A DNA stretch of 64,000 nt from positions 310,001 to 374,000 of the forward strand of contig NZ_SJPI01000003.1 in NCBI RefSeq assembly GCF_007859865.1. Reading direction: 5' to 3'. A model generated the notes under the pieces. The model worked only from the letters and a program-made list of their open reading frames with translations, ran no database searches and was not told the origin of the DNA. The DNA is from Rubripirellula amarantea (GTDB taxonomy: Bacteria; Planctomycetota; Planctomycetia; Pirellulales; Pirellulaceae). Shown piece by piece: positions 3,684-46,547 of this stretch. How positions within the stretch are numbered: position 1 is the first letter of the stretch; each line of letters begins with the position of its first letter. Made by a program: the position numbers and the translations under genes.

Positions 3684-4002
3684 ATACCGATTGCTCATGG
3701 GATGTTCCTGTGCGTGTTTATGGCTCAATGGCCGACCTGGAGATGAACGATGTCAGCATGTTGACAAACGTGCCTATCTGTTGCGCCGATGTGGGCAAAT
3801 CGCCCTCTGTGATGCCAGACACTCCGTGACTCGATCCAGATGATCCGAAAAAACCTTCTTGTCGTGGTTCTGACGCGACATCGGCATGTCTATTGCATTG
3901 CAAACTAGGTGCTCCAGCGGGCTTTCTGTCCGTGACGGAGTCCGCGAAATACCTTTTGCAACTACTTACGACACGTATCTCCAAACCTTCTGAATCTAAG
4001 CA
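3684..4002 (+). promoter_or_regulatory. Intergenic control region with a candidate enhancer dyad
   Basis: This 319 bp gap has no convincing gene; the open frames are poor in composition. It holds a sigma-54 promoter core at 3882-3897, listed separately. About 120 bp upstream of the core, at 3751-3766, is a perfect dyad TGTCA-N6-TGACA, which also fits the TGT-N10-ACA layout known for NifA-type enhancer sites. A second dyad, TGTCG-N11-CGACA (3860-3880), abuts the -24 box. The spacing suits an activator site acting through DNA looping, but binding by the adjacent NtrC-type protein is inference. Confidence 0.45.
3882..3897 (+). promoter_or_regulatory. Sigma-54 (-24/-12) promoter of the SDR-permease-dehydrogenase operon
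   Basis: The core CGGCATGTCTATTGCA matches the RpoN consensus TGGCACG-N4-TTGCA at all key positions, with GG and GC exactly 10 bases apart. Transcription should start near 3908, about 95 bp before the SDR start codon. The gene immediately upstream is a sigma-54 activator. Confidence 0.75.
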
Positions 4003-4791
4003 ATGGAATTAGAACTCAACAACAAGACAGCGTTGGTGACGGCATCAACCGGTGGCATTGGATTGGCAATCGCAAGCAACTTGGCTTCCGAGGGAGCAAC
4101 GACGATCGTCAACGGCCGCAGCGAGTCGAGCGTTAGCAAAGCGATGGACGAGATTCGAAAGAGAACACCCAACGCCGACCTGATTGGACTCGTAGCTGAT
4201 AATGGGACATCCGCTGGGGTGGCTCAAACCGTAGAACAGCATCCTCAAGTTGATATTCTGATCAACAATCTCGGCATTTTTGAGGCAGTCGATTTCTTTG
4301 ACTTGACGGACGAAGCATGGCAGGAAATCTTCGACATCAACGTCATGAGCGGTGTGCGACTGGCGCGACACTACTTGAAGGAAATGCTTGACCGCGATAC
4401 CGGACGCATCATCTTTATCAGCAGTGAATCAGGAGTAGTCCCGGCGCCCGAGATGCCTCATTATGCGATGACAAAGACCGCTCAGCTCGCCGTCTCACGC
4501 AGTTTGGCTCAGTTGACCAAGGGAAGTTCTGTTACAGTGAATACTGTCATGCCTGGTTCAACCATGACACCCGGTGTGAAGGAATTTGTCACCAATCTTT
4601 TCCCAGAGCTAGACTACCCATCGGCCGAGCGACGCTTCATGTCAGAGAATCGACCGACCTCGTTGATTCAAAGACTGATTGCCCCTCAAGAGATCGCCAA
4701 CCTAGTTACGTTCGTTGCCAGCCCACTGGCGTCGGCAATCAACGGTGCTTCGCTAAGGGTCGATGGGGGCATCGTGCCGACAATCGTCTGA
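4003..4791 (+). CDS. Short-chain dehydrogenase/reductase (SDR)
   Basis: A 262-residue classical SDR. The Rossmann nucleotide motif is TASTGGIG (13-20), the structural motif is NNLG (88-91), and the catalytic Ser140/141, Tyr154 and Lys158 follow the YxxxK pattern. It oxidises or reduces an alcohol/carbonyl pair with NAD(P); the substrate cannot be read from the sequence. It heads a run with an NCS1 permease and a mannitol-dehydrogenase-family enzyme, and a sigma-54 promoter lies 95 bp upstream. Its stop codon sits inside the first copy of a 14-bp tandem repeat. Confidence 0.9.
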
Positions 4792-4836
4792 CAACAATTG
4801 TCTGACAACAATTGTCTGACAACAATTGTCTGACAA
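4786..4836. repeat. 14-bp tandem repeat, about 3.6 copies
   Basis: The unit GTCTGACAACAATT is repeated three times perfectly, then partly. The first copy contains the TGA stop of the SDR gene. Each full unit contributes to an 8-bp palindrome ACAATTGT. It lies between the SDR and permease genes and could be a slippage product, or could affect transcript processing. Confidence 0.9.
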
Positions 4837-4871
4837 CCATGGAATAGCAACATGAACACAAAGCGAACTGT

Positions 4872-6596
4872 ATGAGCGACGATGATGACGCAATTGCGAT
4901 CTCAAGTATTGACCCCGAGCAATTGCCGGTCGCAGAGAACGAACTGCATGGATGGACTCACTTTGCGGGATTGTATGCTGGCGAGCATGTTGCAGCGACC
5001 GAGTTTGTCATCGGAGCAACATTCGTCGCGTTAGGTGCATCCACGAAAGACATTCTGATCGGGCTATTGATCGGCAATATCCTTGCGATTCTAAGCTGGA
5101 CGTTGATCACGACGCCAATCGCAGTCCAAACGCGGCTAAGTCTCTATACGTATCTGCATAAGATCGCTGGGGACTCAATGAGCGATCTCTACAACTGGGC
5201 CAACGTTCTGATCTTCACCGTCATCTCGGCGGCAATGATCACCGTTTCATGCACGGCCGTTCGGCTGCTGTTGAATATCCCGGCGCAATTGGAATGGTAC
5301 CCCAGCGACGGACTATTCATCGCGGTTGTTGTTGCCGTGGGGATGATCGTCGTGCTAGTTGCGATGTATGGATTTAATGCCGTTGCTGAATTTTCAGGTC
5401 TCTGCGGTCCCTGGTTGGTTGTGATGTTCGTCAGCGGCGCATTGGTGTTGTTCCCAGCGCTCGCCGACGCAGTCCTTGGCAGCACTCAACTAACCGGGTT
5501 TGCCGACTTCATCGCGATCGGCGATCAATCGATTTGGACCGGGATTAATAGTGAAGGGCAACCCGGCATTGGATTGTTGGAAGTCATCGGGTTCGCTTGG
5601 GCAGCCAATACGATCACCCACTTTGGATTGATTGACATGGCACTCCTGCGTTACGCAAAGAAGAGCGTCTATGGACTTTGCACCAGTGCCGGCATGCTGT
5701 TTGGTCACTACATCGCCTGGATTGCTGCAGGGATCATGGGTGCAGGAACAGCGGTGCTTATGAAATCCACCATCGTCGAATTGGACCCCGGCGACGTTGC
5801 CTATCGTGCGCTGGGTTTGTCGGGATACGTGATCGTGATCATAGCGGGTTGGACGACCGCCAATGCGAACCTTTATCGCGCCGGTTTGGCAGCCCAGGCA
5901 ATTTTCCACATGCACTCACGAAAGAAGGTCACCTTCACAGTGGGTGTCGTCACCGTCGCGATCGCGTGCTTCCCCTTCGTGTACAAACAAATTCTCCCGC
6001 TTCTTACCTACGCAGGTTTGATCGTGGTCCCAGTCGGTGGAATCGTGTTCGCCGAACATGTCATCTTTCCCCGCATCTCGTTGACGAGGTACTGGGCCAA
6101 GTACAAGGGTCTGACTCACAGCACTCCAGCGGTTGCGTCGTGGGTAGCTGGACTTGTATTTGGCTTCGGGCTGAACTACTTGCATGTGATGTCGTTCTTT
6201 TACCTATTCCTGCCAACCTGGGCATTTACCATCGTTTTCTACACGATGCTGGCGAGCCTTTATGGAGCCAGGGATAGCTATCCAGTCGAGGTGGCCGCCG
6301 AGCAAAAACGCAACGAGGCAATCCGAGAGTTCCAGCAGCAACGAGCGAGATTGCTGCAACGACCGATTTACGATGCCTCAGCAATGACGAATGTGCTGCG
6401 TGTCATAAAGTGGTTGGCCCTGGCAATCACACTAGTTCTGGCGTTGGTGGTGATGTTCGCTAGTCCGGACATGACAATCTACGAGCGTAATGCGTCGATT
6501 TTCTACGCGTGGGGCTTTGCCTTAACGATTACTTACTTCGTTTCCGCTTACTGGGTTTTGCAGCGAACGAAAAAACTGAACCAGGTAGCAATATGA
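4872..6596 (+). CDS. NCS1-type purine/cytosine permease family transporter
   Basis: A 574-residue integral membrane protein with about 12 hydrophobic segments. Near the N terminus is the HGWTHFAGLYAGEH region typical of cytosine/purine/uracil/allantoin (NCS1) carriers, which import nucleobases or related compounds with H+ or Na+. A C-terminal extension adds a charged stretch (about 475-510) and two more membrane helices, making it longer than CodB-type members. It is 80 bp downstream of the SDR and overlaps the next gene by 4 bp (ATGA), so translation is probably coupled. The substrate may instead be a polyol or other compound, given the dehydrogenases on either side. Confidence 0.82.
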   Translation: MSDDDDAIAISSIDPEQLPVAENELHGWTHFAGLYAGEHVAATEFVIGATFVALGASTKDILIGLLIGNILAILSWTLITTPIAVQTRLSLYTYLHKIAGDSMSDLYNWANVLIFTVISAAMITVSCTAVRLLLNIPAQLEWYPSDGLFIAVVVAVGMIVVLVAMYGFNAVAEFSGLCGPWLVVMFVSGALVLFPALADAVLGSTQLTGFADFIAIGDQSIWTGINSEGQPGIGLLEVIGFAWAANTITHFGLIDMALLRYAKKSVYGLCTSAGMLFGHYIAWIAAGIMGAGTAVLMKSTIVELDPGDVAYRALGLSGYVIVIIAGWTTANANLYRAGLAAQAIFHMHSRKKVTFTVGVVTVAIACFPFVYKQILPLLTYAGLIVVPVGGIVFAEHVIFPRISLTRYWAKYKGLTHSTPAVASWVAGLVFGFGLNYLHVMSFFYLFLPTWAFTIVFYTMLASLYGARDSYPVEVAAEQKRNEAIREFQQQRARLLQRPIYDASAMTNVLRVIKWLALAITLVLALVVMFASPDMTIYERNASIFYAWGFALTITYFVSAYWVLQRTKKLNQVAI

Positions 6597-8083
6597 ATAT
6601 CCCAATCTCGTTGAACAATAAAAACTTGGCGCAGCTTAGCGATGATATTGTTCGTCCCCACTACGATCGTAGTTGCGTCACGACCGGGATTGTCCACGTG
6701 GGAATTGGCGGATTCCATCGTTCTCACGAAGCGTTCTACACCGACTTGCTACTCGAATCGGGAGCTTCTTCCCAGTGGGGAATTTGTGGTGTAGGCCTGC
6801 GGGAGCCCGATCGGAAGATGGCGAAGATCCTGAAACAGCAGGATTACCTCTACACGCTAATCGTTAAGCATCCTGACGGTAGGATCGAAACGAAGGTGAT
6901 CGGATCCATCATTGATTTCATGATGGGATGTGATGATCCACAATCCGTCATCGATCGAATGGCTCATCCCGACACCAAGATTGTTTCGTTAACGATCACC
7001 GAAGGAGGATACAACATCGACGCCGAAACAGGTGACTTCGATGCATCGAATCCTGACGTACAGCATGACGTTCAAAACGCAACTCAACCTCGCTTGGTCT
7101 TTGGCTTTCTGACTGAAGCACTCCGAAAACGCCGCGACCAAGGTCTTGAAGCATTCACCATTCAGTCCTGTGACAACATTCAACATAACGGCGATCTGAC
7201 TCGCAAAATGGTGCTCGGTTTTGCGAAACTGCAGGACAAGGACCTAGCGAACTGGATTGAACGTGAAGTCTCTTTTCCCAATGCGATGGTCGATCGGATC
7301 ACTCCTGTGACCACTCAATCGGACATTGATTTCTTGCGTTCCGAGTTTGACTTGGATGACCAATGGCCGGTGGTTTGCGAACCGTTTTGCCAATGGGTGA
7401 TCGAAGACAAGTTTTCGGCAGGTCGACCTGAATGGCAAGACGTAGGCGCCCAATTTGTGGGGGACGTAAAACCTTATGAAGAGATGAAACTGCGGCTACT
7501 TAACGCTGGTCACTCGGTACTGGGGATTCTTGGTAGCGTGTTCGGCTACCAAACGATTGACGAATGCGTGCATGACGATCTGTTTCGCGAGTTTCTAAAA
7601 CAGTTTTACGATCGTGAAGCTGCCCCAGTCCTCGATGCAGTCGAAGGAATCGATCTGGACCAATACAAAGCAACTCTGATCGAACGATTTGGCAATCCGA
7701 ACATCAGAGACAATCTCGCCCGCATCTGCCTTGGCAGCTCGAGTAAGTTGCCTGTCTTCTTGATGCCCACCATTCGGAAGAACCTTTCAAGTGGCGGGAG
7801 CATTCAGTTGGCTACGCTTGTGATCGCTGCTTGGTGCTACTACAGCGACCGTCACGCCGATCGTCACGGGAATTCACTCGAAGTCACGGACGAACTGAAA
7901 GACAGCTTGCACGAAGCAGCCAAAGCGACCGACCAAGACCGGCTGTCATTCCTGAAAGTAAAATCTGTGTTTGGTGACCTTGCGAACAACGAACGTTTCG
8001 CTGATACCTATTCCGAAATGATTCAACGGGTCTATCGTGAACCCGATGTTACCAAGCATATGCGATCTATTTTAGAAGGCTGA
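6593..8083 (+). CDS. Mannitol dehydrogenase family polyol/uronate oxidoreductase
   Basis: A 496-residue long-chain polyol dehydrogenase. The N-terminal nucleotide-binding motif is VHVGIGGFHRSH (about 34-45), a PNAMVDRITP signature follows, and the C-terminal domain has the catalytic-lysine region KLRLLNAGHS. Members interconvert D-mannitol/fructose, arabinitol/xylulose or hexuronates with NAD(H). I chose the ATG at 6593 because it overlaps the permease stop (ATGA) and gives the usual family length; an upstream in-frame ATG at 6509 lies inside the permease. The enzyme could regenerate NAD+ under reducing conditions, in line with the nearby lactate dehydrogenase. Confidence 0.9.
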   Translation: MNIPISLNNKNLAQLSDDIVRPHYDRSCVTTGIVHVGIGGFHRSHEAFYTDLLLESGASSQWGICGVGLREPDRKMAKILKQQDYLYTLIVKHPDGRIETKVIGSIIDFMMGCDDPQSVIDRMAHPDTKIVSLTITEGGYNIDAETGDFDASNPDVQHDVQNATQPRLVFGFLTEALRKRRDQGLEAFTIQSCDNIQHNGDLTRKMVLGFAKLQDKDLANWIEREVSFPNAMVDRITPVTTQSDIDFLRSEFDLDDQWPVVCEPFCQWVIEDKFSAGRPEWQDVGAQFVGDVKPYEEMKLRLLNAGHSVLGILGSVFGYQTIDECVHDDLFREFLKQFYDREAAPVLDAVEGIDLDQYKATLIERFGNPNIRDNLARICLGSSSKLPVFLMPTIRKNLSSGGSIQLATLVIAAWCYYSDRHADRHGNSLEVTDELKDSLHEAAKATDQDRLSFLKVKSVFGDLANNERFADTYSEMIQRVYREPDVTKHMRSILEG

Positions 8084-13199: not shown

Positions 13200-13763
13200 T
13201 CAACTTGCGGAGCGAGACTCAGCTTGCCAAACGTTCTTCTCAAATGGTTCATCGAGCGGCGTCTGCGCAATATGATTTGTGTAATTGGAAAGCACCTTGA
13301 AGGCGGTTCCAACAATCACATCGAAAACGGTTTGCTTCGAGTAGCCGGCCTGGAGCAGTTGGTCGATATCACTTTCATCGATCCAGCCACGTTGAAGATT
13401 CATCTTCTCGGCAAAGACGCGGAGAGCCTCAAGCTTTGGATCGTCAATTGACGTGCCGTCTCGGAGTGCCTCGATGACGTCATCGGGTACCTTCGCTGTT
13501 TGCATGATAGAAGTGTGAGCAGCCATGCAATACTCGCAACCGTTCAGACGATTGTTAGTCATTGCGATCACCTGACGTTCGGTTTCACTTAGGTTCGTTT
13601 TGCCGAAGATTGCTCCTACCTGCTTATAGGCTTCCAGCAATGATGGTGACTCCGCCATCACAGCATGCAAGTTCGGGACGAACCCGTAGTTTTTCTTGCT
13701 GTCAGCCAACATGGCCCCGCTATCACCAGCGTTCTCAATGGTATGGACGGTAAAGTCTGTCAT
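13200..13763 (-). CDS. Carboxymuconolactone decarboxylase / AhpD-like peroxidase family protein
   Basis: A 187-residue helical protein with the AhpD redox motif CEYC (Cys76, Cys79) followed by His83 (CMAAHT), preceded by a conserved Glu region. Such proteins reduce peroxides or shuttle electrons using the Cys pair. I chose the ATG at 13763 over the one at 13799 because the GAAGGGGAAG just upstream is a good ribosome site and the family starts here. A near-perfect sigma-54 promoter lies 177 bp upstream, giving a leader of about 168 nt. The SDR downstream is probably co-transcribed. A role in oxidative or nitrosative stress is inferred. Confidence 0.88.
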   Translation of the reverse strand: MTDFTVHTIENAGDSGAMLADSKKNYGFVPNLHAVMAESPSLLEAYKQVGAIFGKTNLSETERQVIAMTNNRLNGCEYCMAAHTSIMQTAKVPDDVIEALRDGTSIDDPKLEALRVFAEKMNLQRGWIDESDIDQLLQAGYSKQTVFDVIVGTAFKVLSNYTNHIAQTPLDEPFEKNVWQAESRSAS

Positions 13764-14081
13764 CGTTGCTTCCCCTTCTTGCCAAATTGTCATGACCATT
13801 CGGTCGAACTTGCTGCGAGTATCGAACTAGGAATACCTGTTACCCTTCACGGTCCGCCAATGTCATCGGTCATGCAAGCCAACGTTTTCACCTGTTGCAT
13901 TTACCTGCTGCACTTCCGCGACATCAGTAGCAACAGTGTCGCAATCTATGTGCCAACGATCGCGTAGAGCTTGAGTAATGCATTTCCGCCAAAGTAAGCG
14001 ATTGATCCGGTCAGCCGTCTTCCTCCCTAGCTGTGATTCAAAGGTTAAGAACACTTTTTGATCAGCCCAGCAGCTTTGTGC
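13764..14081 (-). promoter_or_regulatory. Control region of the AhpD-like gene, with a dyad over the -12 box
   Basis: This 318 bp gap has no supported gene. It contains the sigma-54 core at 13940-13955 and an inverted repeat GCGACA-N13-TGTCGC at 13918-13942. The right arm of that repeat covers the -12 element, so a protein bound there could block the promoter. The leader between 13931 and 13763 is long and could carry regulation, but I see no known riboswitch. Confidence 0.45.
13940..13955 (-). promoter_or_regulatory. Sigma-54 promoter of the AhpD-like gene
   Basis: On the minus strand the core reads TGGCACATAGATTGCG, differing from the consensus only at the last base of the -24 box and the last base of the -12 box. 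GG and GC are 10 bases apart. The expected start is near 13931. Confidence 0.75.
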
Positions 14082-15113
14082 CTAAGAAGCTACTTTTACG
14101 ACGAGTTTTCCAAAGTTCTTACCATCGAGCAAACCCATGAACGCCGTTGGTGCGTTCTCGAGACCGTCGACGACATCTTCCATGAACTTCACTTTGCCTT
14201 GTTCAACCCACGGTTTCATTTCGGACAAGAATTCATCGTAGCGCGGCCCATAGTCATCGAAGATGATGAACCCTTGCGCCTTGATTCGTTTTATCAGAAA
14301 CGTTTGCATCAACATCGGCAGTCGATCCGGGCCCTCGGGCAAGCCGGTGTCGTTGTAATGGGCGATCATTCCACAGATGGGAATTCGTGCCTTTGTGTTT
14401 AACAGCGGAAGTACAGCATCGAAAACTTTGCCACCAACACTTTCGAAGTAGACATCGATTCCTTGCGGACACGCGGTAGTCAACTGCTGAGCAAAATCCG
14501 AGGCATAGTGATCCAGACACTCATCAAAACCAAACGTCTCAACTCCAGCCTTGCATTTTTCCGGGCCTCCCGCGACCGCCACGACCCGACATCCTTTCAA
14601 TTTGGCAATCTGCCCCACCACCGAACCCACCGCTCCGGTAGCAGCCGCAACCACGACTGTTTCTCCTTCTGCAGGTTGACCGATATCAAGTAGTCCCATG
14701 TATGCGGTGAAACCGGGCATCCCCAATACCCCCAGCGACCTCGATGGATGTTCCAGATCTCGCCCCAGTGGCATCAAACCAGTGCCATCAGACAGAGCGT
14801 ATTCTTGCCAACCGCTGTTTGCTAAGACCCAATCACCCTCCTGATAGTCTGGATGCATTGACTGCTCAACCTGACAAACTGTTCCACCCACCATGACTTC
14901 GCCAATCGAAACCGGCGCCGCGTAAGACGGCTTGTCGCTCATCCGCCCTCGCATGTAGGGATCGAGGGAGAGGTAAACCGTTCGCAGTAACAAGTTACCC
15001 TGAGTCAATTCAGGTAGTTCTGTCTCTTCAAGGCGGAAATTATCGGACTTGGGTGCACCATGCGGCCGAGAGTTTAGAACGATACGACGGTTGACTGTAT
15101 TTGATTGAGACAT
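14082..15113 (-). CDS. Zinc-independent medium-chain NADP-dependent reductase (MDR family)
   Basis: A 343-residue oxidoreductase of the leukotriene B4 dehydrogenase/prostaglandin reductase/CurA branch. It has the DPYMRGRM motif (51-58), cofactor-binding AATGAVGS (about 157-164) and no zinc-ligand cysteines. Members reduce the double bond of alpha,beta-unsaturated aldehydes and ketones with NADPH, detoxifying lipid-peroxidation products. A sigma-54 promoter lies 46 bp upstream with a leader of about 36 nt, placing it in the same proposed regulon as the neighbouring AhpD-like gene. Exact substrate unknown. Confidence 0.9.
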   Translation of the reverse strand: MSQSNTVNRRIVLNSRPHGAPKSDNFRLEETELPELTQGNLLLRTVYLSLDPYMRGRMSDKPSYAAPVSIGEVMVGGTVCQVEQSMHPDYQEGDWVLANSGWQEYALSDGTGLMPLGRDLEHPSRSLGVLGMPGFTAYMGLLDIGQPAEGETVVVAAATGAVGSVVGQIAKLKGCRVVAVAGGPEKCKAGVETFGFDECLDHYASDFAQQLTTACPQGIDVYFESVGGKVFDAVLPLLNTKARIPICGMIAHYNDTGLPEGPDRLPMLMQTFLIKRIKAQGFIIFDDYGPRYDEFLSEMKPWVEQGKVKFMEDVVDGLENAPTAFMGLLDGKNFGKLVVKVAS

Positions 15114-15158: not shown

Positions 15159-15174
15159 TGCAAAGCTCATGCCG
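15159..15174 (-). promoter_or_regulatory. Sigma-54 promoter of the MDR reductase gene
   Basis: The minus-strand core CGGCATGAGCTTTGCA matches both boxes at every strongly conserved base with GG-N10-GC spacing. The expected start is near 15150 and the start codon is at 15113. Confidence 0.75.
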
Positions 15175-22030: not shown

Positions 22031-22141
22031 GGGCAACTGGGTGCGCAACTCTCGCTTAGCTGACTGCGGTGCTCGCGAGAGCGAAAAAACGCCCCGAAAT
22101 TTCTGGAAAGAATGACACATTTAGACTAAAAATCAGGTGAA

Positions 22142-32062: not shown

Positions 32063-32078
32063 AGCAGATTCGATGCCA
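32063..32078 (-). promoter_or_regulatory. Sigma-54 promoter of the SpoIIAA-like gene
   Basis: The minus-strand core TGGCATCGAATCTGCT has GG-N10-GC spacing and matches both boxes at most positions. The expected start is near 32053, 41 bases before the start codon. A 6-bp dyad GTGCGG-N9-CCGCAC lies 70 bp upstream (32135-32155) and may be an activator site. Confidence 0.7.
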
Positions 32079-32188
32079 AAGAACGACTTACATATCCAGC
32101 ACGCATGATGCTATCGAGATGCGACCTCGGTTGCGTGCGGAATGTCACACCGCACAAGCACAAACGCTCGCTTTGGCGACGAAGATGT

Positions 32189-32383
32189 CTAGCTCAGCCC
32201 GCTCTTGTTTTTGGTTCGGTCAACAAGTTTGTAGGTTGATCCGGACACAGTCGTAGGTGGCATAGGCTCGCCTTTGACAACAGTCACTTCGTGTCCTTCC
32301 CGGCCTCTGGGACCAATTTCCTGATACTGTCCGGACGCAGGCGCTTTTTCACCGGGCTTCAACTCGGTCGTTTTGATTGACAT
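32189..32383 (-). CDS. YjzC-like small protein
   Basis: A 64-residue protein resembling YjzC: a Lys-Pro-Gly-Glu start, ASGQY, GPRGREGHEVTVVKGEP and a Pro-Pro-Thr, YKLVD tail. The family is small and its function unknown; it is often seen with stress-induced genes. A sigma-54 promoter lies 59 bp upstream, back to back with that of the DsrE gene. Confidence 0.85.
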   Translation of the reverse strand: MSIKTTELKPGEKAPASGQYQEIGPRGREGHEVTVVKGEPMPPTTVSGSTYKLVDRTKNKSGLS

Positions 32384-32441: not shown

Positions 32442-32457
32442 CGCAAGGCGCATACCA
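32442..32457 (-). promoter_or_regulatory. Sigma-54 promoter of the YjzC-like gene
   Basis: The minus-strand core TGGTATGCGCCTTGCG has a perfect TTGC -12 box, one change (C to T) in the -24 box and GG-N10-GC spacing. The expected start is near 32432. Confidence 0.7.
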
Positions 32458-32478: not shown

Positions 32479-32494
32479 TGGCACAGCGAATGCG
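32479..32494 (+). promoter_or_regulatory. Sigma-54 promoter of the DsrE gene
   Basis: The core TGGCACAGCGAATGCG has TGGCAC and TGC boxes with GG-N10-GC spacing. The expected start is near 32505, 63 bp before the ATG. The opposing promoter for the YjzC-like gene lies only 21 bp away, so a single activator site could serve both. Confidence 0.7.
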
Positions 32495-36820: not shown

Positions 36821-37025
36821 GATGTAGCTCGTTATGGAGGGGAGCCTACCAATGTATCGTAGGCGACAATCACCCATCGAAATAACGAGCATGCTTGGCA
36901 AAACCATGTGCGATCGTCGTGCACCCGAGCACACTAAGCATCGGACTGATCATATATGCACGAGGCGAAGTAGTGCAGCGGTACTATCGGATTGCAAATC
37001 ATCTCGCGTGAGCTGTCGAAACAAA

Positions 37026-37041
37026 CGGCATAACACTTGCG
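37026..37041 (+). promoter_or_regulatory. Sigma-54 promoter of the HlyD-RbbA-ABC operon
   Basis: The core CGGCATAACACTTGCG has a perfect TTGC -12 box and GGCAT in the -24 box with GG-N10-GC spacing. The expected start near 37052 is 58 bp before the HlyD-type start codon. Confidence 0.72.
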
Positions 37042-37109: not shown

Positions 37110-38132
37110 ATGAATTATCTTTTACGTGCGACCCTACGTTTAGCACTTGTTGCGACCGTTGCCATTGCGGGCTACTTCGGTTGGCAATGGTGGCTCGCGC
37201 AGCAACCTGCACCGTTGCCGGAGGGAATTGTATTTGGGAACGGGCGAATCGAGGCCGTTCAAGTTGACATATCGACTAAGTATGCGGGTCGTGTGGAGAA
37301 GGTCTTGGCAAGAGAAGGCGACCTCGTCGAGAGGGGACAACTTTTGGTCCAAATGGATACGCTTGAACTGCAAGCAACCTTGGCGCAAGCCAAAGCTCAA
37401 TTCGCGGAGGCTGAACAAGCCATCACTCAGGCCGAGGCAGTCCTTCTGGAACGCGACAGTCAACTTCAGCTGGCAAAACGTGATCTGGAACGGGCCGCGA
37501 AATTGCTGCCCCAGCGAGCGATTTCGCAAGAGGAATACGACCAGAAAAAAAGTCAGCGTGAAGTTGCCAGCGCATCCTTGGCCGCTGCGAAGGCATCGGT
37601 CAATACGGCCAGACGTTCCGCTGATGCATCGAAGGCAGCCGTTAATCGAATCGAAGTCCAGATTGCCGATGCGCAGCTGAAGGCTCCGACGAAGGGGCGA
37701 GTTCTCTATCGACTTGCCGAAGAAGGCGAAGTTGTATCAGCGGGTGGAAAGGTACTCACGTTGATGGACTTGAGTGATATTTATATGGAGATCTTTCTGC
37801 CGGCTAAGCAAGCCACCCAGCTTTCCATCGGTGCCGATGCTCGTATCGTCCTTGATGTCGCTCCCGGTTACGCGGGAGTCGCCAAAGTAACATTCGTTTC
37901 CCCAGAAGCACAGTTTACGCCCAAGCAAGTTGAAACCCAGGAAGAACGCGACAAGTTAATGTTTCGCGTCAAGATCCAAGTCCCACAAGAGCAAGTAGTA
38001 AAGCACATCGAAAAGATCAAATCGGGTATCCGTGGAGTGGCCTATGTCAAGATCGACGACACGGTCGATTGGCCGGAACAACTCGATCGCTTGTTCCCCG
38101 ACGACCTTTCTCAAATGCATTTCGATCGATGA
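37110..38132 (+). CDS. HlyD/YhiI-type periplasmic adaptor
   Basis: A 340-residue membrane-fusion protein with an N-terminal membrane anchor (about 8-26), a lipoyl-type half motif (GRVEKVLAREGDLVERGQLL), a long coiled-coil hairpin (about 85-190) and a second lipoyl half (APTKGRVLYRLAEEGEVV). It is the first gene of a four-gene operon with a sigma-54 promoter. Its stop overlaps the next start (ATGA). The order adaptor, double-ATPase fusion, permease matches yhiI-rbbA-yhhJ of Escherichia coli. It probably works with the ABC exporter encoded downstream. Confidence 0.92.
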   Translation: MNYLLRATLRLALVATVAIAGYFGWQWWLAQQPAPLPEGIVFGNGRIEAVQVDISTKYAGRVEKVLAREGDLVERGQLLVQMDTLELQATLAQAKAQFAEAEQAITQAEAVLLERDSQLQLAKRDLERAAKLLPQRAISQEEYDQKKSQREVASASLAAAKASVNTARRSADASKAAVNRIEVQIADAQLKAPTKGRVLYRLAEEGEVVSAGGKVLTLMDLSDIYMEIFLPAKQATQLSIGADARIVLDVAPGYAGVAKVTFVSPEAQFTPKQVETQEERDKLMFRVKIQVPQEQVVKHIEKIKSGIRGVAYVKIDDTVDWPEQLDRLFPDDLSQMHFDR

Positions 38133-41047
38133 GTGATCTTCATCGTACCGATAGGGACGCAAGCGTTCGCAACGTTGCCGAGATGGTTGATGTCACTCAC
38201 GTCTACGGCAAGACGATGGCGATCGACAATGTCTCGCTAAAAATTCCCGCTGGCAAGATTCTTGGTTTGATTGGTCCCGATGGTGTCGGTAAGTCGACCT
38301 TGCTGGGGTTGCTCTCAGGGGCTCGAAAACTGCAAAGCGGCACTGTAAGCGTGTTTGGCGGGAGCATGGCGAAGTCAAAGCATCGTAATTCAGTCTGCAC
38401 GCGAATCGCTTACATGCCCCAAGGATTGGGCAAGAACCTTTATCAAGAGCTAAGCGTCCACGAAAACTTGGACTTCTTTGGGAAGCTCTACGCACAATCT
38501 CGCCACGAACGCAAAACACGCATTGCACGTCTTACCGAGGCGACAGGTCTCAACTCGTTTCTACAACGACCTGCTGGCAAACTATCCGGAGGCATGAAAC
38601 AAAAGTTAGGCCTATGTTGCGCTTTGATTCATGATCCTGACTTCCTGATTCTTGATGAACCAACGACTGGCGTTGACCCGCTGTCTCGACGTCAATTCTG
38701 GGAACTGATCGCTTCGATTCGCTCCGAACGATCGGAAATGAGTGTTTTGGTATCGACCGCTTACATGGATGAAGCTCAGCAATTTGATTGGTTGATAGCG
38801 ATGGACTCGGGCAAGGTTCTAGCAACGGGTAGCCCTGATGAAATCAAGACGAGCACGAAGACCGATAGTTTGGAACAATCGTTTGTTGCCTTGCTACCGG
38901 CCGCGAAAAAAGGCGGGCATCAAGAACTTACGATATCACCAAGACCCCCGGGCGACGGCGCGACAGCCATCGTGGCGAAGGATTTGACGCGCTGTTTTGG
39001 CGAGTTCACCGCTGTCGATCACGTCAGTTTCCGAATTCAAGAAGGCGAGATCTTCGGTTTCCTGGGGTCAAACGGATGTGGCAAAACCACAACGATGAAG
39101 ATGCTGACCGGGCTACTACCGCCGTCCGAAGGCACGGCTTGGTTGTGGGGAAAAGAAGTGGACGCCGATGACTTGGCAACGCGTCATCGAGTTGGATTTA
39201 TGTCTCAGGGATTCTCACTCTACGGAGAACTTACGTCTCGTCAAAACCTAAAGCTTCATGCTCGGCTCTTTAAAATGTCACCTTCGAAGACTCAAGCAAG
39301 GATTAACGAGCTTATTGAGAATTTCGGATTGCAAGATTTCGCGACCGCAAAGGCGAACTCTTTGCCGCTTGGAATGCGTCAGCGGCTTTCGCTTGCAGTC
39401 GCTATCGTCCACGAACCCGAGATGCTGATTCTTGATGAACCCACCTCTGGCGTTGACCCGGTCGCCCGCGATCAGTTCTGGGAATTGTTGATCGACTTGT
39501 CGCGAAACCAGAACGTCACCATCTTCATTTCCACCCACTTCATGAACGAGGCAATGCGATGCGACCGCATTTCGTTAATGCACGCTGGAAGGGTCTTGGT
39601 ACAGGACACTCCCCAAGCGATTGCCAACCCGCAGGGCGGGGGAGTCCTTGGCCTCGAAAAAGCGTTTATCAACTCAATTGAACAAGCCAATTCTGATCCG
39701 CCGACGCTTACGCCTTCTCTTTCCTTGTCGCCACTGGAAAATCAAACGCATGGACTGAAGGCAAATCACGCACGACGACAAACAAGTGAGCCACAGGATG
39801 CGTTAGTCAAAGGTCCGGTAATGACTGGTCCGGTAATGACTGGTTTGGCAACGACTGGTTTGGCCAATGCGGTCGTAACTTCTTCGCCTTCGCGCGTGCA
39901 GCAGTCGACTAATCGCCCGCTCGCAGGGTTGAACCGTTTGCTGGCCTTCAGTTATCGCGAGACCATGGAAGTGATGCGAGATCCTGTTCGGTTGACCTTT
40001 GCCTTCGGTGGCAGCCTTTTGCTTTTGCTGGTGATTGCCTACGGACTTTCGTCGGATGTTGAAAACCTTTCTTACGCCGTTCTTGACCGAGACCAATCAC
40101 CCGCGAGCCGAGCCTATTTGCAAGAGTATTCGAGTTCTCGCTATTTCACGGAAGAGGCAGAACTGCTTAACAACGATGATCTGGAAACGAGGCTCGCGGG
40201 TCGCAGGATCACGATGGCAATCGAGATCCCTCCGTCATTTGGTCGCGACTTGAAACGAAGCAGCAGTCCCGAAGTGTCGGTTTGGATTGATGGTGCGGAC
40301 CCATCTCGCGCGGCAACGATCGAAGGCTATGTCGCGGGCGCTCATGGCAAGTCCATCGAAAGGTTTGCTCGCGAAAGTACATCACCCCTCGCTACAAGCG
40401 AACTGGAGTCGTTTGAAGTCCGCTACAAGTATAACCCCACGTTCGAAAGCATCTATGCCATCGGTCCATCCGTTCCTTCCATGATGCTGTTGTTGTTTCC
40501 GGCCATCTTAATGGCGGTCAGTGTCGCACGCGAAAAAGAGATCGGCACGATCACCAATTTCTACGTCACTCCGACGCGACGAATGGAGTTCTTGCTTGGC
40601 AAACAACTACCCTACATCGCTATCGGAATGGCAAACTACTTCATCCTGACCATCGTCGTGGTCTTCTTGTTGCATGTTCCGATGAAAGGGAGCCTATTGA
40701 CGCTCACGATTGGGGCATTGCTTTACGTAACCGCAACGACTGGGTACGGGATGCTGGTTTCGAACCTCGCTTCCAATCAGGTCACCGCGGTGTTGTTAGC
40801 GGCAATCTTGTCCATGATGCCGACGATGCAGTTCTCTGGGATGTTCCAACCGGTTTCAACGCTTGAAGGCGTAGCTCGCGCAATGGGATCCCTCTGGCCA
40901 GCCGCGTACTACCTTCATCTTAGTGTGGGCACGTTTACCAAAGGACTCAGTGCTGCGTCGTTGACGCCCGACCTCATCAAGCTCGCATTATTTTCGCCGG
41001 CATTCTGGATGCTCAGCATTCTCCTCCTGAAAAAGCAGGAGCAATAG
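38129..41047 (+). CDS. rbbA: RbbA-like double ABC ATPase fused to ABC-2 permease
   Basis: A 972-residue fusion of two ABC ATPases and an ABC-2 permease. ATPase 1: Walker A GPDGVGKST (49-57), signature LSGGMKQ (152-158), Walker B FLILDEP (172-178). ATPase 2: Walker A GSNGCGKTT near 312, a degenerate LPLGMRQ signature near 410 and MLILDEPTSGVDPVARD, as in RbbA. A variable linker (about 525-600) contains a five-residue tandem repeat, then the membrane domain follows (about 605-972). I chose ATG 38129 because it overlaps the adaptor stop. RbbA was described as ribosome-associated, but the operon context says exporter. Confidence 0.92.
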   Translation: MSDLHRTDRDASVRNVAEMVDVTHVYGKTMAIDNVSLKIPAGKILGLIGPDGVGKSTLLGLLSGARKLQSGTVSVFGGSMAKSKHRNSVCTRIAYMPQGLGKNLYQELSVHENLDFFGKLYAQSRHERKTRIARLTEATGLNSFLQRPAGKLSGGMKQKLGLCCALIHDPDFLILDEPTTGVDPLSRRQFWELIASIRSERSEMSVLVSTAYMDEAQQFDWLIAMDSGKVLATGSPDEIKTSTKTDSLEQSFVALLPAAKKGGHQELTISPRPPGDGATAIVAKDLTRCFGEFTAVDHVSFRIQEGEIFGFLGSNGCGKTTTMKMLTGLLPPSEGTAWLWGKEVDADDLATRHRVGFMSQGFSLYGELTSRQNLKLHARLFKMSPSKTQARINELIENFGLQDFATAKANSLPLGMRQRLSLAVAIVHEPEMLILDEPTSGVDPVARDQFWELLIDLSRNQNVTIFISTHFMNEAMRCDRISLMHAGRVLVQDTPQAIANPQGGGVLGLEKAFINSIEQANSDPPTLTPSLSLSPLENQTHGLKANHARRQTSEPQDALVKGPVMTGPVMTGLATTGLANAVVTSSPSRVQQSTNRPLAGLNRLLAFSYRETMEVMRDPVRLTFAFGGSLLLLLVIAYGLSSDVENLSYAVLDRDQSPASRAYLQEYSSSRYFTEEAELLNNDDLETRLAGRRITMAIEIPPSFGRDLKRSSSPEVSVWIDGADPSRAATIEGYVAGAHGKSIERFARESTSPLATSELESFEVRYKYNPTFESIYAIGPSVPSMMLLLFPAILMAVSVAREKEIGTITNFYVTPTRRMEFLLGKQLPYIAIGMANYFILTIVVVFLLHVPMKGSLLTLTIGALLYVTATTGYGMLVSNLASNQVTAVLLAAILSMMPTMQFSGMFQPVSTLEGVARAMGSLWPAAYYLHLSVGTFTKGLSAASLTPDLIKLALFSPAFWMLSILLLKKQEQ
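39814..39873. repeat. 15-bp in-frame tandem repeat in the ABC fusion linker
   Basis: The unit GGTCCGGTAATGACT occurs twice exactly, followed by two diverged copies, and encodes GPVMT-GPVMT-GLATT-GLANA. It sits in the flexible linker between the second ATPase and the membrane domain, where length changes should be tolerated. Confidence 0.9.
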
Positions 41048-41049
41048 CT

Positions 41050-42174
41050 ATGAGATCACTGACCGGAATCTATTGGCTGGGAACAAAAGAACTTTGGACG
41101 TTGCTTGGCAGCATCCCGATGATGGCGTTCTTGATCTATTCCTTCACATTTAGCGTCTATCAACAAAGTGAAGGTGTCCCCGAAGACGTCAACCGGGCGT
41201 CCGTTACATTCGTCGATGAAGACCAATCTACTCTGTCGCGAAAAATGAGGGATGCACTGTATCCGCCATTCTTCAAGGTCCCTGAACAAATCACAGCCGC
41301 AGAAATAGAAGATTCGATGGACGCGGGTAGGTTCATGTTTGTCGTTGTAGTCCCACCCGACTTCGAATCAGATGTTCGCGAAGGACGTTCGCCAGAAATT
41401 CAAATCAACATTGATGCAACGGCGGTCAGGCAAGCTGCCTTGGGCGCTAGCTACATTCAATCAATAGTGACCAAAGAGACCCGACGGTTCGTCAGCCGTA
41501 CTGACGCGACTGAGGAACAGCCCATCACACTGATCCAACGAAAAGCCTTTAATCCCAACGGGACGAACCGTTGGAACCGTGCCGTCACAGGAGTCCTGGA
41601 CCAATTGTCGATGTTGACCATCATCTTGACCGGCGCGGCGATCTTGCGTGAACGCGAACATGGCACGCTCGAACACTTGCTCACGCTGCCGCTGACATCT
41701 TTTCAGATTGCCATTTCCAAAGTTTGGGCGAATGGACTCGTAATCTTGGCGTGCTTCATGTTGTCGATGGTCGTTGTGGTTGAAGGGATGTTGAACGTCC
41801 CATTCGCTGGTTCTCGTCTTTTGCTATTTATCGGAACCGTGGTGTATTTGTTTGCTGCTGCGGCGATCGGAATTTTGCTCGCGACCATCGCACGCAGCAT
41901 GGCCCAATTCGGGCTGCTGTGCATGATCACGATCATCCCTATGATGATGCTCTCGGGCGGGATGAGCCCTTTGGAAAGCCAGCCGGATTGGTTGCAACGA
42001 ATCACGTGGTTCCTGCCGTCGCGTCAATACATGAGCTTTGCTCAATCGATCGCATTTCGGGGTGTGGGGTTCGATATCGTCTGGCCCGAGTTTGTCGCCA
42101 TGGTTGGTTTAGGGATGGCAGCTTTTCTCGGCAGCTTGGCACTATTTCGTCGTTCCGTCTCTGCCACTCAATAG
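41050..42174 (+). CDS. ABC-2 type permease (YhhJ-like)
   Basis: A 374-residue membrane protein with one N-terminal helix, a large periplasmic domain (about 50-170) and a cluster of five helices at the C-terminal end, with the ABC-2 motif LREREHGTLEHLLTLPLT (about 198-215). It starts two bases after the RbbA-like stop, so it is translationally coupled. The membrane part of the RbbA-like fusion and this protein probably form the two halves of the exporter. The cargo is unknown. Confidence 0.92.
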   Translation: MRSLTGIYWLGTKELWTLLGSIPMMAFLIYSFTFSVYQQSEGVPEDVNRASVTFVDEDQSTLSRKMRDALYPPFFKVPEQITAAEIEDSMDAGRFMFVVVVPPDFESDVREGRSPEIQINIDATAVRQAALGASYIQSIVTKETRRFVSRTDATEEQPITLIQRKAFNPNGTNRWNRAVTGVLDQLSMLTIILTGAAILREREHGTLEHLLTLPLTSFQIAISKVWANGLVILACFMLSMVVVVEGMLNVPFAGSRLLLFIGTVVYLFAAAAIGILLATIARSMAQFGLLCMITIIPMMMLSGGMSPLESQPDWLQRITWFLPSRQYMSFAQSIAFRGVGFDIVWPEFVAMVGLGMAAFLGSLALFRRSVSATQ

Positions 42175-42183
42175 TGACCCACC

Positions 42184-43905
42184 ATGGACCTCATTGACGT
42201 TCCTCAACTTGTTCGAAATGCAGATCGGTTTCGTGAGGTTGTCGCGATTCTCGCCAAACACGGATTGGCGGACTGGTTGTCGAGCGTGCCAATGCCTTGG
42301 CTTGATCGGTTTCGACGCAGTTCGACCGAAGCCCCTGACAAAGCTCTCACCACTGAACAACGAATCCGGGTAGCACTTACCGAACTAGGTGCCACCTTCA
42401 TAAAGCTCGGCCAGGTTTTGAGCACGCGGCCAGACTTGGTTGGGCAGCGTCTAGCGGATGAACTGGCTCAACTGCGAGCGAACACCCCCGAGGACGATGC
42501 CAACGCAGTGATTGCAATGATCGAGTCCGAACTTGGTGGAACCATGGACCAATTGTTTGCCGAATTCGAGACCAAGGCACTAGCTTCTGCATCGATCGGT
42601 CAAGTCCACCGGGCAACGACTCACGACGGGGACAAAGTCGTTGTAAAGGTCCAACACCCTGGGATTGAGCGGCGAATCGTCAATGATTTGGAAATCATGA
42701 TCAGGTTGGCTCAAATCGCAGAGGATCAATCCGAGCGACTTCGACAATACCGCCCCGTCAAAACGACGCACGAGTTTAGACGAACTTTGATGCGTGAACT
42801 CGACTTCGGTCGCGAATTGCGGAACATGCAAACCTTCCGTCGCAACTTTGATGAGTGTAGCGACATTCGGTTTGCTCGGCCGTATCCAGAACTTAGCTCG
42901 CGTCGAGTCTTGACGATGGAGTGTTTCGAAGGCATCAGTGTTTCCGAGAAGTCGCAACTCGTCGCTACAGGATTAGATCTCGATGAGATTGCGCGTCGCG
43001 GTGCCAATCTGTTCATTGAAATGATATTCAGAGACGGCTTCTATCACGCCGATCCACACCCGGGCAATCTGATGGTGTTGGTTGATAAAAGCCCAATGAT
43101 CCCCGACGCTTCCGACGCGACACGCATAACGGATCGCTTAAAGCCCGACGCTCTTTTAGGAGTACTTGACTGCGGGATGGTCGGGCGTATCGACGATCGT
43201 TTGCGCGACGACCTCGAACTCGCACTAATCGCAGCCACCGCCCAGGACTCAGCCAAGATTGCTGAGGTCGTGGCAAGAATCGGCGAAGTTCCCGGCGACT
43301 TTGACGAAGCCGCGCTTCATGGATCGATCAAAGAATTGCTAGATGAATACGCTTATCAATCGCTCCGCGAATTTGACTTAAGCGGATGTCTTCACCAAAT
43401 CGTCCAGATCATCCGAGAACATCACATCTATTTACCCGCCAAAGTTGCCATGTTGCTGAAAGTATTGGTGATGCTTGAAGGAACCTCGCAGCAGCTCAGC
43501 CCAAGCTTTAGCCTCGCTGAAATCATTGAACCCTACGGCCAACAAGCAATGCTGCGTCGCTTCTCACCGCGACGTCTGTACAAGCGGATAAGGTCAAACG
43601 TCGATGACTGGGAACACTTGATGGGGATACTGCCCAAGGATGCCGCCGACATTCTGCACAATTTGAAACGAGGAAAGTTCGACGTTCACCTTCAACACCG
43701 CCGTCTTGAACCAGTAGTCAATCGCCTCGTCATGGGTATTCTTACCGCGGCTTTATTCGTCGGTTCAGCTTCGCTTTGCAGCAATGAAGTTCCACCAACG
43801 ATCTATGGATACTCAGTCCCTGGATTTGTCGGTTGCGCAGTCGCTATCGTGATGGGATACCGCATCTCACGATCAATCCGACAATGCCCAACATCGGATA
43901 GGTAG
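42184..43905 (+). CDS. UbiB/ABC1/ADCK family atypical kinase
   Basis: A 573-residue protein with all hallmarks of the UbiB family: KxGQ motif FIKLGQ (72-77), Ala-rich loop ASIGQVH (136-142), Lys155 in VVVKVQHPG, the DPHPGN metal-binding loop, and two C-terminal membrane helices (about 515-560). UbiB proteins support quinone biosynthesis or lipid handling through an ATPase/kinase activity. It follows the permease by only 9 bp, so it belongs to the sigma-54 operon. That is an unusual setting and hints at a link between this exporter and membrane lipids or quinones. It is convergent with the DUF389 gene. Confidence 0.93.
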   Translation: MDLIDVPQLVRNADRFREVVAILAKHGLADWLSSVPMPWLDRFRRSSTEAPDKALTTEQRIRVALTELGATFIKLGQVLSTRPDLVGQRLADELAQLRANTPEDDANAVIAMIESELGGTMDQLFAEFETKALASASIGQVHRATTHDGDKVVVKVQHPGIERRIVNDLEIMIRLAQIAEDQSERLRQYRPVKTTHEFRRTLMRELDFGRELRNMQTFRRNFDECSDIRFARPYPELSSRRVLTMECFEGISVSEKSQLVATGLDLDEIARRGANLFIEMIFRDGFYHADPHPGNLMVLVDKSPMIPDASDATRITDRLKPDALLGVLDCGMVGRIDDRLRDDLELALIAATAQDSAKIAEVVARIGEVPGDFDEAALHGSIKELLDEYAYQSLREFDLSGCLHQIVQIIREHHIYLPAKVAMLLKVLVMLEGTSQQLSPSFSLAEIIEPYGQQAMLRRFSPRRLYKRIRSNVDDWEHLMGILPKDAADILHNLKRGKFDVHLQHRRLEPVVNRLVMGILTAALFVGSASLCSNEVPPTIYGYSVPGFVGCAVAIVMGYRISRSIRQCPTSDR

Positions 43906-45062: not shown

Positions 45063-45263
45063 TTAAGATGCCTCCCACGGCAACACCAAGCAAGCTTCGC
45101 CTGAGTCGGTGAAGTCATCAAGATCCGCAGTGTCGAGTTCCCAGAGTCGTTCGCAGAGTTCAGCGTCAGCGATTGAAACAAGATGACCACTTTCGTTCTG
45201 TTGCTCCTCTAGAATTTCAAAGGCTTCATCGCGTATGTCGGTGACGTGAATCGTTTGGCACAT
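45063..45263 (-). CDS. Small acidic protein, unknown
   Basis: A 66-residue acidic protein (MCQTIHVTDIRDEAFEILEE) with no recognised domain. It is supported as a gene mainly by a well-matched sigma-54 promoter 46 bp upstream and by its even codon use. It belongs to a set of four small unknown genes between the UbiB operon and the cupin gene, three of which have such promoters. Confidence 0.65.
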   Translation of the reverse strand: MCQTIHVTDIRDEAFEILEEQQNESGHLVSIADAELCERLWELDTADLDDFTDSGEACLVLPWEAS

Positions 45264-45308
45264 CAGTTTAGTCCTTAGTTAAAATCCGAATTGTTTGCTG
45301 ACTCTTGC

Positions 45309-45324
45309 GGCATCCTTCATGCCG
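45309..45324 (-). promoter_or_regulatory. Sigma-54 promoter of the small acidic gene
   Basis: The minus-strand core CGGCATGAAGGATGCC has a strong -24 box, TGC at -12 and GG-N10-GC spacing. The expected start is near 45299. Twenty bases upstream is a perfect dyad GCGACA-N5-TGTCGC (45343-45359). Confidence 0.68.
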
Positions 45325-45358
45325 AAACCCACAACTGCGAGTGCGACACGCGATGTCG

Positions 45359-45772
45359 CTACAATGCTGCTTCTAAGGCAGCCTTCAAGGTCGCAACGTG
45401 AGCCATGACTGTATGATGGTGCTTCTTGATGCGTTCATGGGCTGATTGCTGACGGCGGTGCAGGTCTGCTTGCTTAACGTGCTGGTCATTCAGAACATCA
45501 TCTAACTCAGTGTGAGATCCGTTTTGCAGACTCGCCGCCAAGTTCTGTTCGTGATGCACAAGGCTACGTTCAAGCGAGACGACTGATTCAGCGTGTTCGT
45601 CCAACGACGCACCGTGCTCATTGATCTGGTTAAGGGCTTCTTGTAGCTGTGCAATTGCGGTCGAATGTTCGGAACGCCAATTATCGATGTCGTCCTTCCA
45701 ACAATCCACGTCACTTTGCCAATGGCGATGGTCAGCATGGGATTCCGCAGCGGATTTAAGACTAACAGTCAT
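45359..45772 (-). CDS. Coiled-coil protein, unknown
   Basis: A 137-residue, His- and Gln-rich, mostly helical protein with heptad character across nearly its whole length (for example QLQEALNQINEHGASLDEH). No signal sequence and no known domain are seen. A sigma-54 promoter lies 55 bp upstream. It could be a structural or scaffolding stress protein; nothing more specific can be supported. Confidence 0.75.
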   Translation of the reverse strand: MTVSLKSAAESHADHRHWQSDVDCWKDDIDNWRSEHSTAIAQLQEALNQINEHGASLDEHAESVVSLERSLVHHEQNLAASLQNGSHTELDDVLNDQHVKQADLHRRQQSAHERIKKHHHTVMAHVATLKAALEAAL

Positions 45773-45826: not shown

Positions 45827-45842
45827 AGCAATGCGTGTACCA
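45827..45842 (-). promoter_or_regulatory. Sigma-54 promoter of the coiled-coil gene
   Basis: The minus-strand core TGGTACACGCATTGCT has a perfect TTGCT -12 box and GG-N10-GC spacing. The expected start is near 45817. A perfect dyad AATCGT-N4-ACGATT lies just upstream at 45854-45869. Confidence 0.7.
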
Positions 45843-45914
45843 AACCAACTCGAAATCGTGTTTACGATTGGCAGACTCCACAATCCTTTCCCTCCAACCA
45901 CGTTGGATGATGCG

Positions 45915-46529
45915 ATGCCTAAGCGACTTGATCACTTGCTCGAAGAAATTCACGAACTCGAACGAGTCGTTACTGAAAAAATCCAGCAGACCAAGAACGA
46001 TTTCACTTACAAACTTGTCCGCGGGCGAGCAGTTTTTGACAAAGATGTGCGGCGGCGTCACAGAGCGATGGCCAAGCACGCATGGAGGACCATCTGTGAA
46101 TCATCTTTTTGGACAATCGCAACCGCACCGGTGATTTATTCGTTGCTGATTCCATTCACGATGATGGATATGTTTGTTTCCCTATACCAAGCGGTCTGCT
46201 TTCGCGTTTACCGAATTCCGCGAGTCAAGCGAAGCGAGTACGTCGTCATCGATCGACACTCGCTGGCTTACCTGAACATCATCGAGAAAGTGAACTGCGT
46301 CTACTGTGGGTACTGCAACGGTGTGATAGCCTTCGCCCGAGAGGTTGCCTCACGAACCGAACAATACTGGTGTCCCATCAAACATGCTCGCCGCGCCAAA
46401 GGGTGTCACAGTCGCACTTGTCTCTTCTGCGAGTTCGGTGATGCCGAGGGCTATGCGGAGAATCTGCAGAGCTTACGACAGCAATTCCATGACATCGAAA
46501 CCAGTCGGGAAGAAAGCAGCGGTACGTGA
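45915..46529 (+). CDS. Conserved membrane protein with cysteine motifs, unknown
   Basis: A 204-residue protein: an N-terminal helical region, a hydrophobic hairpin (about 70-100, ATAPVIYSLLIPF), then a Cys-rich tail with CVYCGYC, YWCPIKHARRAKGC and TCLFC, spaced like metal or Fe-S ligands. It resembles a conserved hypothetical family I cannot name. I chose ATG 45915 because the longer frame from 45831 would start within the opposing promoter. It is divergent from the coiled-coil gene; no own sigma-54 site was found. Confidence 0.78.
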   Translation: MPKRLDHLLEEIHELERVVTEKIQQTKNDFTYKLVRGRAVFDKDVRRRHRAMAKHAWRTICESSFWTIATAPVIYSLLIPFTMMDMFVSLYQAVCFRVYRIPRVKRSEYVVIDRHSLAYLNIIEKVNCVYCGYCNGVIAFAREVASRTEQYWCPIKHARRAKGCHSRTCLFCEFGDAEGYAENLQSLRQQFHDIETSREESSGT

Positions 46530-46531
46530 TT

Positions 46532-46547
46532 TGGCATATTGTTTGCG
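46532..46547 (+). promoter_or_regulatory. Sigma-54 promoter of the 87-residue coiled-coil gene
   Basis: The core TGGCATATTGTTTGCG has strong -24 and -12 boxes with GG-N10-GC spacing. It begins three bases after the previous stop codon. The expected start near 46558 is 54 bp before the ATG. Confidence 0.75.

Follow-up and report, generated by a model that had tools for sequence, protein, structure and literature searches.

A 64,000-nucleotide (nt) stretch of the 6.95-Mb genome of Rubripirellula amarantea (G000, contig C3, positions 310001–374000; hereafter the window, with positions counted from 1) probably belongs to a sigma-54/NtrC-type stress regulon whose activator uses a palindromic upstream site at a subset of the promoters and whose gene content resembles that of the DosR regulon and the lxa locus. 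Computed directly were the promoter enrichment, the upstream motif and its association with an activator family, and which genes the sigma-54 regions contain. In the mechanism that we propose, the kinase encoded at 574–2211 would phosphorylate the activator encoded at 2346–3683, which would then bind TGYGCR-NWWN-YGCRCA about 50–130 base pairs (bp) upstream of the sigma-54 boxes at 3882, 22142/22161, 32064 and perhaps 37026, and the bound activator would loop to the sigma-54 polymerase; site binding by the activator, the phosphorelay and the signal are what we infer. Within the window, the activator plausibly governs the stress and redox genes from 4003 onward and at 22274 and 31653, and elsewhere in the genome it would drive operons for universal stress proteins (Usp). 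The other window promoters would be sigma-54-dependent, probably under a different activator or with sites that have diverged or lie farther off.

Sigma-54 boxes in the window

On sequence grounds, the boxes in the window are very probably real sigma-54 promoters. We searched both strands for YGGYAY-N6-TGC with GG-N10-GC spacing, using the reversed pattern as the control. All ten boxes listed in the initial annotation were found with their spacing intact, although the left edges given on the minus strand were one base off; the box listed at 45309 is a near-palindrome that matches both strands (45308 on the plus strand, 45310 on the minus strand). The claim that matches are far above chance was borne out, as the window holds 14, whereas 100 dinucleotide shuffles gave a mean of 3.97 (standard deviation 2.11, maximum 9) and none of the 100 reached 14. 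Across the whole genome, the pattern matched 555 times (271 + 284) and its reversal 506 times (239 + 267), indicating that the bare pattern is mostly background, that the enrichment is local and that placement outweighs count. These genome-wide numbers are what speaks for dismissing the boxes as chance matches to a loose consensus, an explanation that we regard as extremely improbable in view of their placement, their matrix scores and the letters at unconstrained positions.

Gene starts were called over 2.054 Mb of the genome with an in-house hexamer-based script, which gives approximate starts and upstream labels and omits 6509–8083. Upstream of these starts lay 58 of 178 pattern matches compared with 13 of 153 reversed ones, and in the window 11 of 14 compared with 0 of 4. 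One of the 11, at 40998, was rejected as a promoter, as it is really coding, within the 3′ end of RbbA; the ten listed boxes remain before gene starts, as had been claimed, once it is removed, and the reversed control predicts 0.4 per 64 kb. The Poisson probability of ten upstream sites in 64 kb is 2e-11 at the reversed-control rate and 1e-7 at the rate found outside the window in the sampled 2.054 Mb. A sigma-54 matrix trained on 47 upstream sites outside the window (scores in bits) found nine upstream matches above 14 bits in the window, compared with none for the reversed matrix. At positions that the pattern leaves free, the 58 upstream sites carry T two bases before GG (32/58), directly before TGC (37/58) and two bases after TGC (33/58), T preferences also found in canonical sigma-54 promoters. 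A further point against chance is a csrA-like gene (our own reading, made with no family search) with a sigma-54 box at C2:968367, csrA being a published sigma-54 prediction for Pirellula.

The initial annotation had left the inside of genes out of its background; in the window, the coding matches are those at 40998, 60822 and 63910, the latter two likewise rejected as promoters. Also set aside was a matrix match at 666, which lies within the kinase coding sequence and whose letters recur in homologous kinase genes. The genome has one rpoN match above the PF04552 cut-off (C2:1667420) and a second below it.

A palindromic upstream site and an associated activator family

The upstream site was derived from promoters of relatives. 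A width-16 palindromic search over the ten window promoters and 14 promoters from G003, G012 and Rhodopirellula sallentina reached a log-likelihood of 65.9, compared with 31–43 in six shuffles. The same search on the ten window promoters alone stayed at shuffle level (27.1 versus 24.4–29.8 in six shuffles), dyad counting in the G000 genome alone gave nothing convincing, and the site emerged only once the relatives' promoters were included. Those 14 promoters provided a held-out matrix, used with a threshold above 9; a refined matrix, also built from relatives only, was applied to zones of 35–140 bp and of 35–400 bp. A half-site-plus-box pattern run over 294 genomes of the phylum proved too degenerate, and nothing was drawn from it.

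The tie between site and activator family was apparent at 28 planctomycete loci of more distant activator homologues, none of which is in the held-out matrix. There the site accompanied 28 of 79 boxes in all, including 19 of the 43 TTGC-type ones; among 1120 random zones it occurred in 40, and among 37 reversed-pattern places in 2; 20 column-permuted motifs matched at 0–4 of the 43 TTGC-type boxes. At 49 loci not titled planctomycete, the site occurred at 4 of 77 boxes versus 42 of 1960 random zones. Family members 48–58% identical to the window activator adjoin the same motif. The recognition end is similar in the printed homologues, some with incomplete tails, mostly reading GNK and then RRxLYR; the exceptions are RRKIYR in L035, RNK in L036 and WNK in L037.

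The window activator itself (2346–3683, plus strand) combines a receiver, an AAA+ domain and a Fis-type helix–turn–helix (PF00072, PF00158 and PF02954), and its GSFTGA loop at residue 222 fits GxFTGA. The Pfam architecture supports the initial assignment of an NtrC-type activator with its kinase at the left edge. A 77% homologue occurs in R. sallentina, and the best solved relative is 4l4u. The activator shares its three domains with NtrC, ZraR and AtoC, and AtoC is its best NCBIfam family, yet it scores 394.6 bits against a cut-off of 714, and the best 25 of 114 NCBIfam families all fell under their cut-offs, leaving it outside the named equivalogs NtrC, AtoC, ZraR and NtrX. Divergent from it lies a GAF–PAS histidine kinase gene identified by Pfam (574–2211, minus strand), the product of which is likely to be its partner; the two genes are also side by side in L023 and G003. 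The PAS domain of the kinase is closest in the PDB to FixL, with arginine at the residue aligned with what we take to be the FixL heme histidine, and its GAF domain has weak PDB matches only. Beside the kinase is a single-domain response regulator gene (140–502, minus strand; PF00072), and its 62–68% orthologues adjoin the kinase in L023 and G003. A strong upstream-site match (16.8) lies at 85–102, 3′ of this small gene; with no sigma-54 box near, it was rejected as the site of a regulated promoter.

Directly 3′ of the activator, the upstream site TTGCGCCGATGTGGGCAA (3781–3798) stands 92 bp from the sigma-54 box CGGCATGTCTATTGC (3882–3896, plus strand, 18.3 bits), which precedes the SDR gene at 4003–4791; the site scores 14.4 with the held-out matrix (P = 0.0013) and 12.5 with the refined one (P = 0.002). 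G003 and R. sallentina have a sigma-54 box 3′ of the activator too, with like sites at 81 and 96 bp, both among the promoters behind the matrix. The site GCGTGCGGAATGTCACAC (32133–32150; held-out 9.6, P = 0.011; refined 11.1, P = 0.0047) is 63 bp from the box at 32064–32078 (minus strand, 16.8 bits), before the SpoIIAA-like gene at 31653–32012. A borderline site, CTGATCATATATGCACGA (36946–36963; held-out 6.7, P = 0.05; refined 7.1, P = 0.037), lies 71 bp from the box at 37026–37040 (plus strand, 16.7 bits), before the HlyD–RbbA–YhhJ–UbiB genes (37110–43905), among which the RbbA identity given earlier was confirmed by NCBIfam. The site ATGCGCGTATATGGGCAA (22019–22036; 14.7, P = 0.002) was located by the site-plus-box search and is hence not independent; it precedes a tandem of two sigma-54-like boxes spaced 19 bp apart, each reading TGGCATGTCTTTCGC (22142–22175, starting at 22142 and 22161, plus strand, 10.7 bits each, GG-N10-GC intact), which stand before the epimerase gene at 22274–23335 and were missing from the earlier list. 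Within 140 bp, the shared-site test thus reaches P < 0.01 at two promoters out of the ten (3882 and 32064), is borderline at a third (37026) and also picks out the unlisted tandem. The proposal that the ten boxes form one regional regulon stands for 3882 and 32064, with 37026 borderline, and falls short for the remaining seven, which have no site within 140 bp.

Two of these seven lie left of 16 kb: the box before the AhpD-like gene (13941–13955, minus strand, 18.2 bits; gene at 13200–13799), which has no upstream site, and that before the MDR reductase gene (15160–15174, minus strand, 14.5 bits; gene at 14082–15113), which has none at 35–140 bp and a site-like match (9.0) at 29 bp that is too close. 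The box at 32443–32457 (minus strand, 14.6 bits), also without an upstream site, precedes a small gene at 32189–32383 that was annotated as YjzC-like and has no NCBIfam match. On the opposite strand, the box at 32479–32493 (17.9 bits) precedes genes for DsrE (32568) and an acyl-CoA synthetase–GNAT protein (33072). The near-palindromic sigma-54-like box (45308–45324; 12.8 bits, the lowest of the ten) points on the minus strand toward 45063–45263, and the last two boxes precede genes for small proteins: 45828–45842 (minus strand, 17.3 bits) before 45359–45772, and 46532–46546 (plus strand, 18.6 bits) before 46612–46875. When the refined matrix is applied to the 35–400-bp zone, the 32133 site also serves as a match for box 32479, 337 bp away (P = 0.02), and a site-like match (12.0, P = 0.010) lies 331 bp upstream of box 45310.

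Two proteins near these promoters have no Pfam or NCBIfam match. The 574-residue product of 4872–6596 is encoded immediately after the SDR gene that promoter 3882 precedes. The cysteine-rich product of 45831–46529 is 68–71% conserved in G003 and G012, where a sigma-54 box follows its orthologue, yet the gene behind that box differs from 46612.

Usp genes, conservation and competing explanations

The site is not confined to the window. Over the 2.054 Mb, the refined matrix gave 15 site-plus-box pairs, eight in coding sequence and seven intergenic (five clear, two weak). The five clear intergenic pairs are the window boxes 3882, 32064 and 22142 together with C3:744567 and C3:753098, and both pairs outside the window precede tandem-domain Usp genes. 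A purely regional set, as first described, is therefore untenable, as the same site occurs about 390 kb away before Usp genes and a second sigma-54 cluster exists. A sigma-54 box stands before five of the six Usp genes in the genome; these five form four units, and two of the units also have the site. Near the remaining Usp gene, a 743-residue frame at C1:2184996, no box exceeds 12 bits. A further 400 kb, partly around other activators, contained no box above 12 bits with a site above 9 (best, 8.3).

In the relatives' loci, sigma-54 boxes front genes for Usp, Hsp20, CBS, hemerythrin, BON and P-type ATPase proteins, and the activator gene itself. The first genes behind 53 boxes with the site (at least one of which, at 8316 in L048, is inside a kinase gene and likely to be a false positive) encode Usp (12), receiver (4, three of them the activator), CBS (3), SpoIIAA-like (3), hemerythrin (3) and Zn-alcohol dehydrogenase (2) proteins, with Prismane, PPK2, NTP-transferase and ATP-synthase alpha/beta once each; the gene in L023 is a nitroreductase. 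As a control, 68 leftover boxes without the site were reduced to 61 by setting aside five that scored above 6 and two without an open frame. Behind these came receiver (8), Usp (6), activator-domain (4), Hsp20 (4), P-type ATPase (2), BON (2) and cytochrome c (2) genes. Whether the site is present or not, the sigma-54 regions around activator homologues have the character of stress regions. The excess of Usp behind boxes with the site (12/53 versus 6/61; Fisher P = 0.053) is not significant, and the association of Usp with the region is thus firmer than that with the site. What links the site itself to Usp is this modest excess and the two pairs in the G000 genome, and a specific tie is unproved. 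As for the response proposed initially, stress or energy limitation fits the gene content, and low oxygen is a matter of inference.

The site might instead belong to a paralogue of the activator at C2:1492581, an attribution that we consider improbable. The paralogue is 55% identical to the window activator, within the 48–58% range of activators that sit by the same motif, and a Usp gene that has a sigma-54 box is located some 19 kb away. However, the site immediately adjoins the window activator, as it does the close orthologues of this protein in G003 and R. sallentina, whereas the 80-kb stretch around the paralogue has no site above 9 at boxes above 12 bits, and the promoter of its Usp gene carries a half-site at most (5.5).

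Box conservation in orthologous regions was uneven: it held, within rearranged loci of the relatives, for the SpoIIAA-like gene, the 45359 protein and the synthetase in G003 and was mixed elsewhere. Both fetched orthologues of the SpoIIAA-like gene (G003 and G012) keep the box and also carry the site; the box of the small protein 45359 is kept in G003; and in G003 the box before the synthetase is nearly identical, with DsrE no longer beside it. In G003, genes for the synthetase, the SpoIIAA-like protein, HDAC and small proteins all lie within about 36 kb of an activator homologue. Other homologues of window genes found beside activator homologues are those of DsrE and the 46612 protein (L031), the synthetase and LarA (L048), a SulP–carbonic anhydrase (L050) and a P-type ATPase (L030). 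Among 21 other same-genus genomes (E <= 1e-60 for HlyD, E <= 1e-90 for MDR), full homologues of the synthetase and MDR were found only in G003 and of HlyD only in G012, and this presence in one genome each marks these genes as accessory. A tRNA-Ser(GGA) gene (C3:309833–309916; L018:9833–9916) borders the accessory stretch, ending 84 bp before the window begins. A test for a genomic island found no exact repeat of at least 14 bases of the tRNA 3′ end up to C3:460000, about 150 kb rightward, and no clear G+C shift.

Such patchiness, together with the seven of ten promoters that share no upstream site within 140 bp, would suit several unrelated small sigma-54 circuits in an accessory stretch, with the activator controlling only its adjacent operon (3882). 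We think this unlikely, if less so than the paralogue's ownership of the site, because the site also occurs at 22142/22161 and 32064 (each P < 0.005, with 22142 found via the site), because box and site persist together before the SpoIIAA-like orthologues and because of the gene neighbourhood in G003.

Beyond the regulon that we favour for G000, we tentatively entertain a wider one: a planctomycete lineage-specific stress-persistence regulon acting through sigma-54, in which one NtrC-type activator family, with its own enhancer site and in several loci its own box, would control Usp, Hsp20, CBS, hemerythrin, Hcp-type and redox genes, and in which gene islands such as the window would carry their promoters along when rearranged. 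Several results count against the regulon that we favour for G000. Besides the seven listed promoters without a site, the 11 window promoters (including 40998) as a group are not above background (rank test, P = 0.59), and the window contains no Usp gene. The genome has 19 sigma-54 activator-domain matches, 17 of them strong. The L067 and L102 loci, titled planctomycete and counted apart from the 49, have sigma-54 boxes with the site at 0 of 8; with the paralogue's site-free stretch, this means that the association of site and activator is not universal in the family. The synthetase box is kept in one of six relatives (G003; a split copy in G034 is outside the test), the MDR box in one of four (G024) and the HlyD box in none of one (G012, the sole relative found). 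To these is added the marginal Usp comparison above.

Known systems and other sigma-54 clusters

In the DosR regulon of Mycobacterium, Usp and redox genes are likewise under two-component control, but DosR is a LuxR/NarL-type regulator that acts without sigma-54. Studholme and Dixon reportedly treated the sigma-54 activators of Pirellula sp. strain 1 in silico in 2004. The lxa locus of Burkholderia cenocepacia includes six Usp along with heat-shock, BON and reductase proteins, according to the available part of PMC6127331; its clustered Usp, heat-shock, BON and nitro-reduction genes recall the Usp, Hsp20, BON, CBS, hemerythrin, nitroreductase and Prismane genes of the planctomycete sigma-54 regions. 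That part of the paper indicates an Anr/CRP-type oxygen regulator, not sigma-54, and Usp genes lie outside the window.

Sigma-54 control of stress genes in Planctomycetia has already been published as a prediction: the available part of PMC12316311 (Carrera-Reyna 2025), which refers to in silico work on Pirellula activators from 2004, predicts it for UspA, MscS, chaperone, csrA and regulator genes. Our analysis shares with it the sigma-54 promoters before UspA and stress genes; unlike ours, the same part gives no upstream site, no assignment to a single activator and no clustered islands. The phrase 'universal stress' is absent from the main text of the R. baltica stress transcriptome, as far as the available portion of PMC2754498 goes. 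Our searches of the open-access literature listed no report of the upstream site or of the activator, subscription papers being outside that scope. Sigma-54 stress regulation is thus known as a kind, and the activator, the site and the layout look new.

With 17 strong sigma-54 activators in the genome, and a binding site given for no planctomycete activator in the available parts of the papers above, an enhancer motif tied to one activator family and to regions rich in Usp and small heat-shock genes yields a short list of testable promoters. It also opens the question of how planctomycetes, using a type of regulator unlike those of DosR and lxa, come through energy or oxygen stress; if our reading is right, a sigma-54/NtrC-type family would do the job given to other regulator types in mycobacteria and Burkholderia.

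A second, denser sigma-54 cluster lies at C1:1855078–1923222 (L164–L168). It comprises 17 upstream boxes and encodes an NtrC-type activator of its own, with a box (1892930) in front of the activator gene. A family scan of ten proteins from this cluster found, among others, members of the CsbD-like, DUF892, DUF2383, AI-2E and transglycosylase-associated families; when 39 other genomes were searched, 14 had homologues of the cluster's activator at E <= 1e-140. The palindromic site is not above background among the 17 promoters as a group, with one at P = 0.0045 (C1:1903708), and the width-16 palindromic search came out just above shuffles (36.8 versus 29.1–35.0). A non-palindromic search of width 14 gave 54.6 versus 42.8–48.1 in six shuffles. 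This cluster appears to be a general stress regulon under sigma-54 that uses another upstream site. A third, loose cluster at C1:3284787–3312690 (L174–L175) has five boxes upstream of starts.

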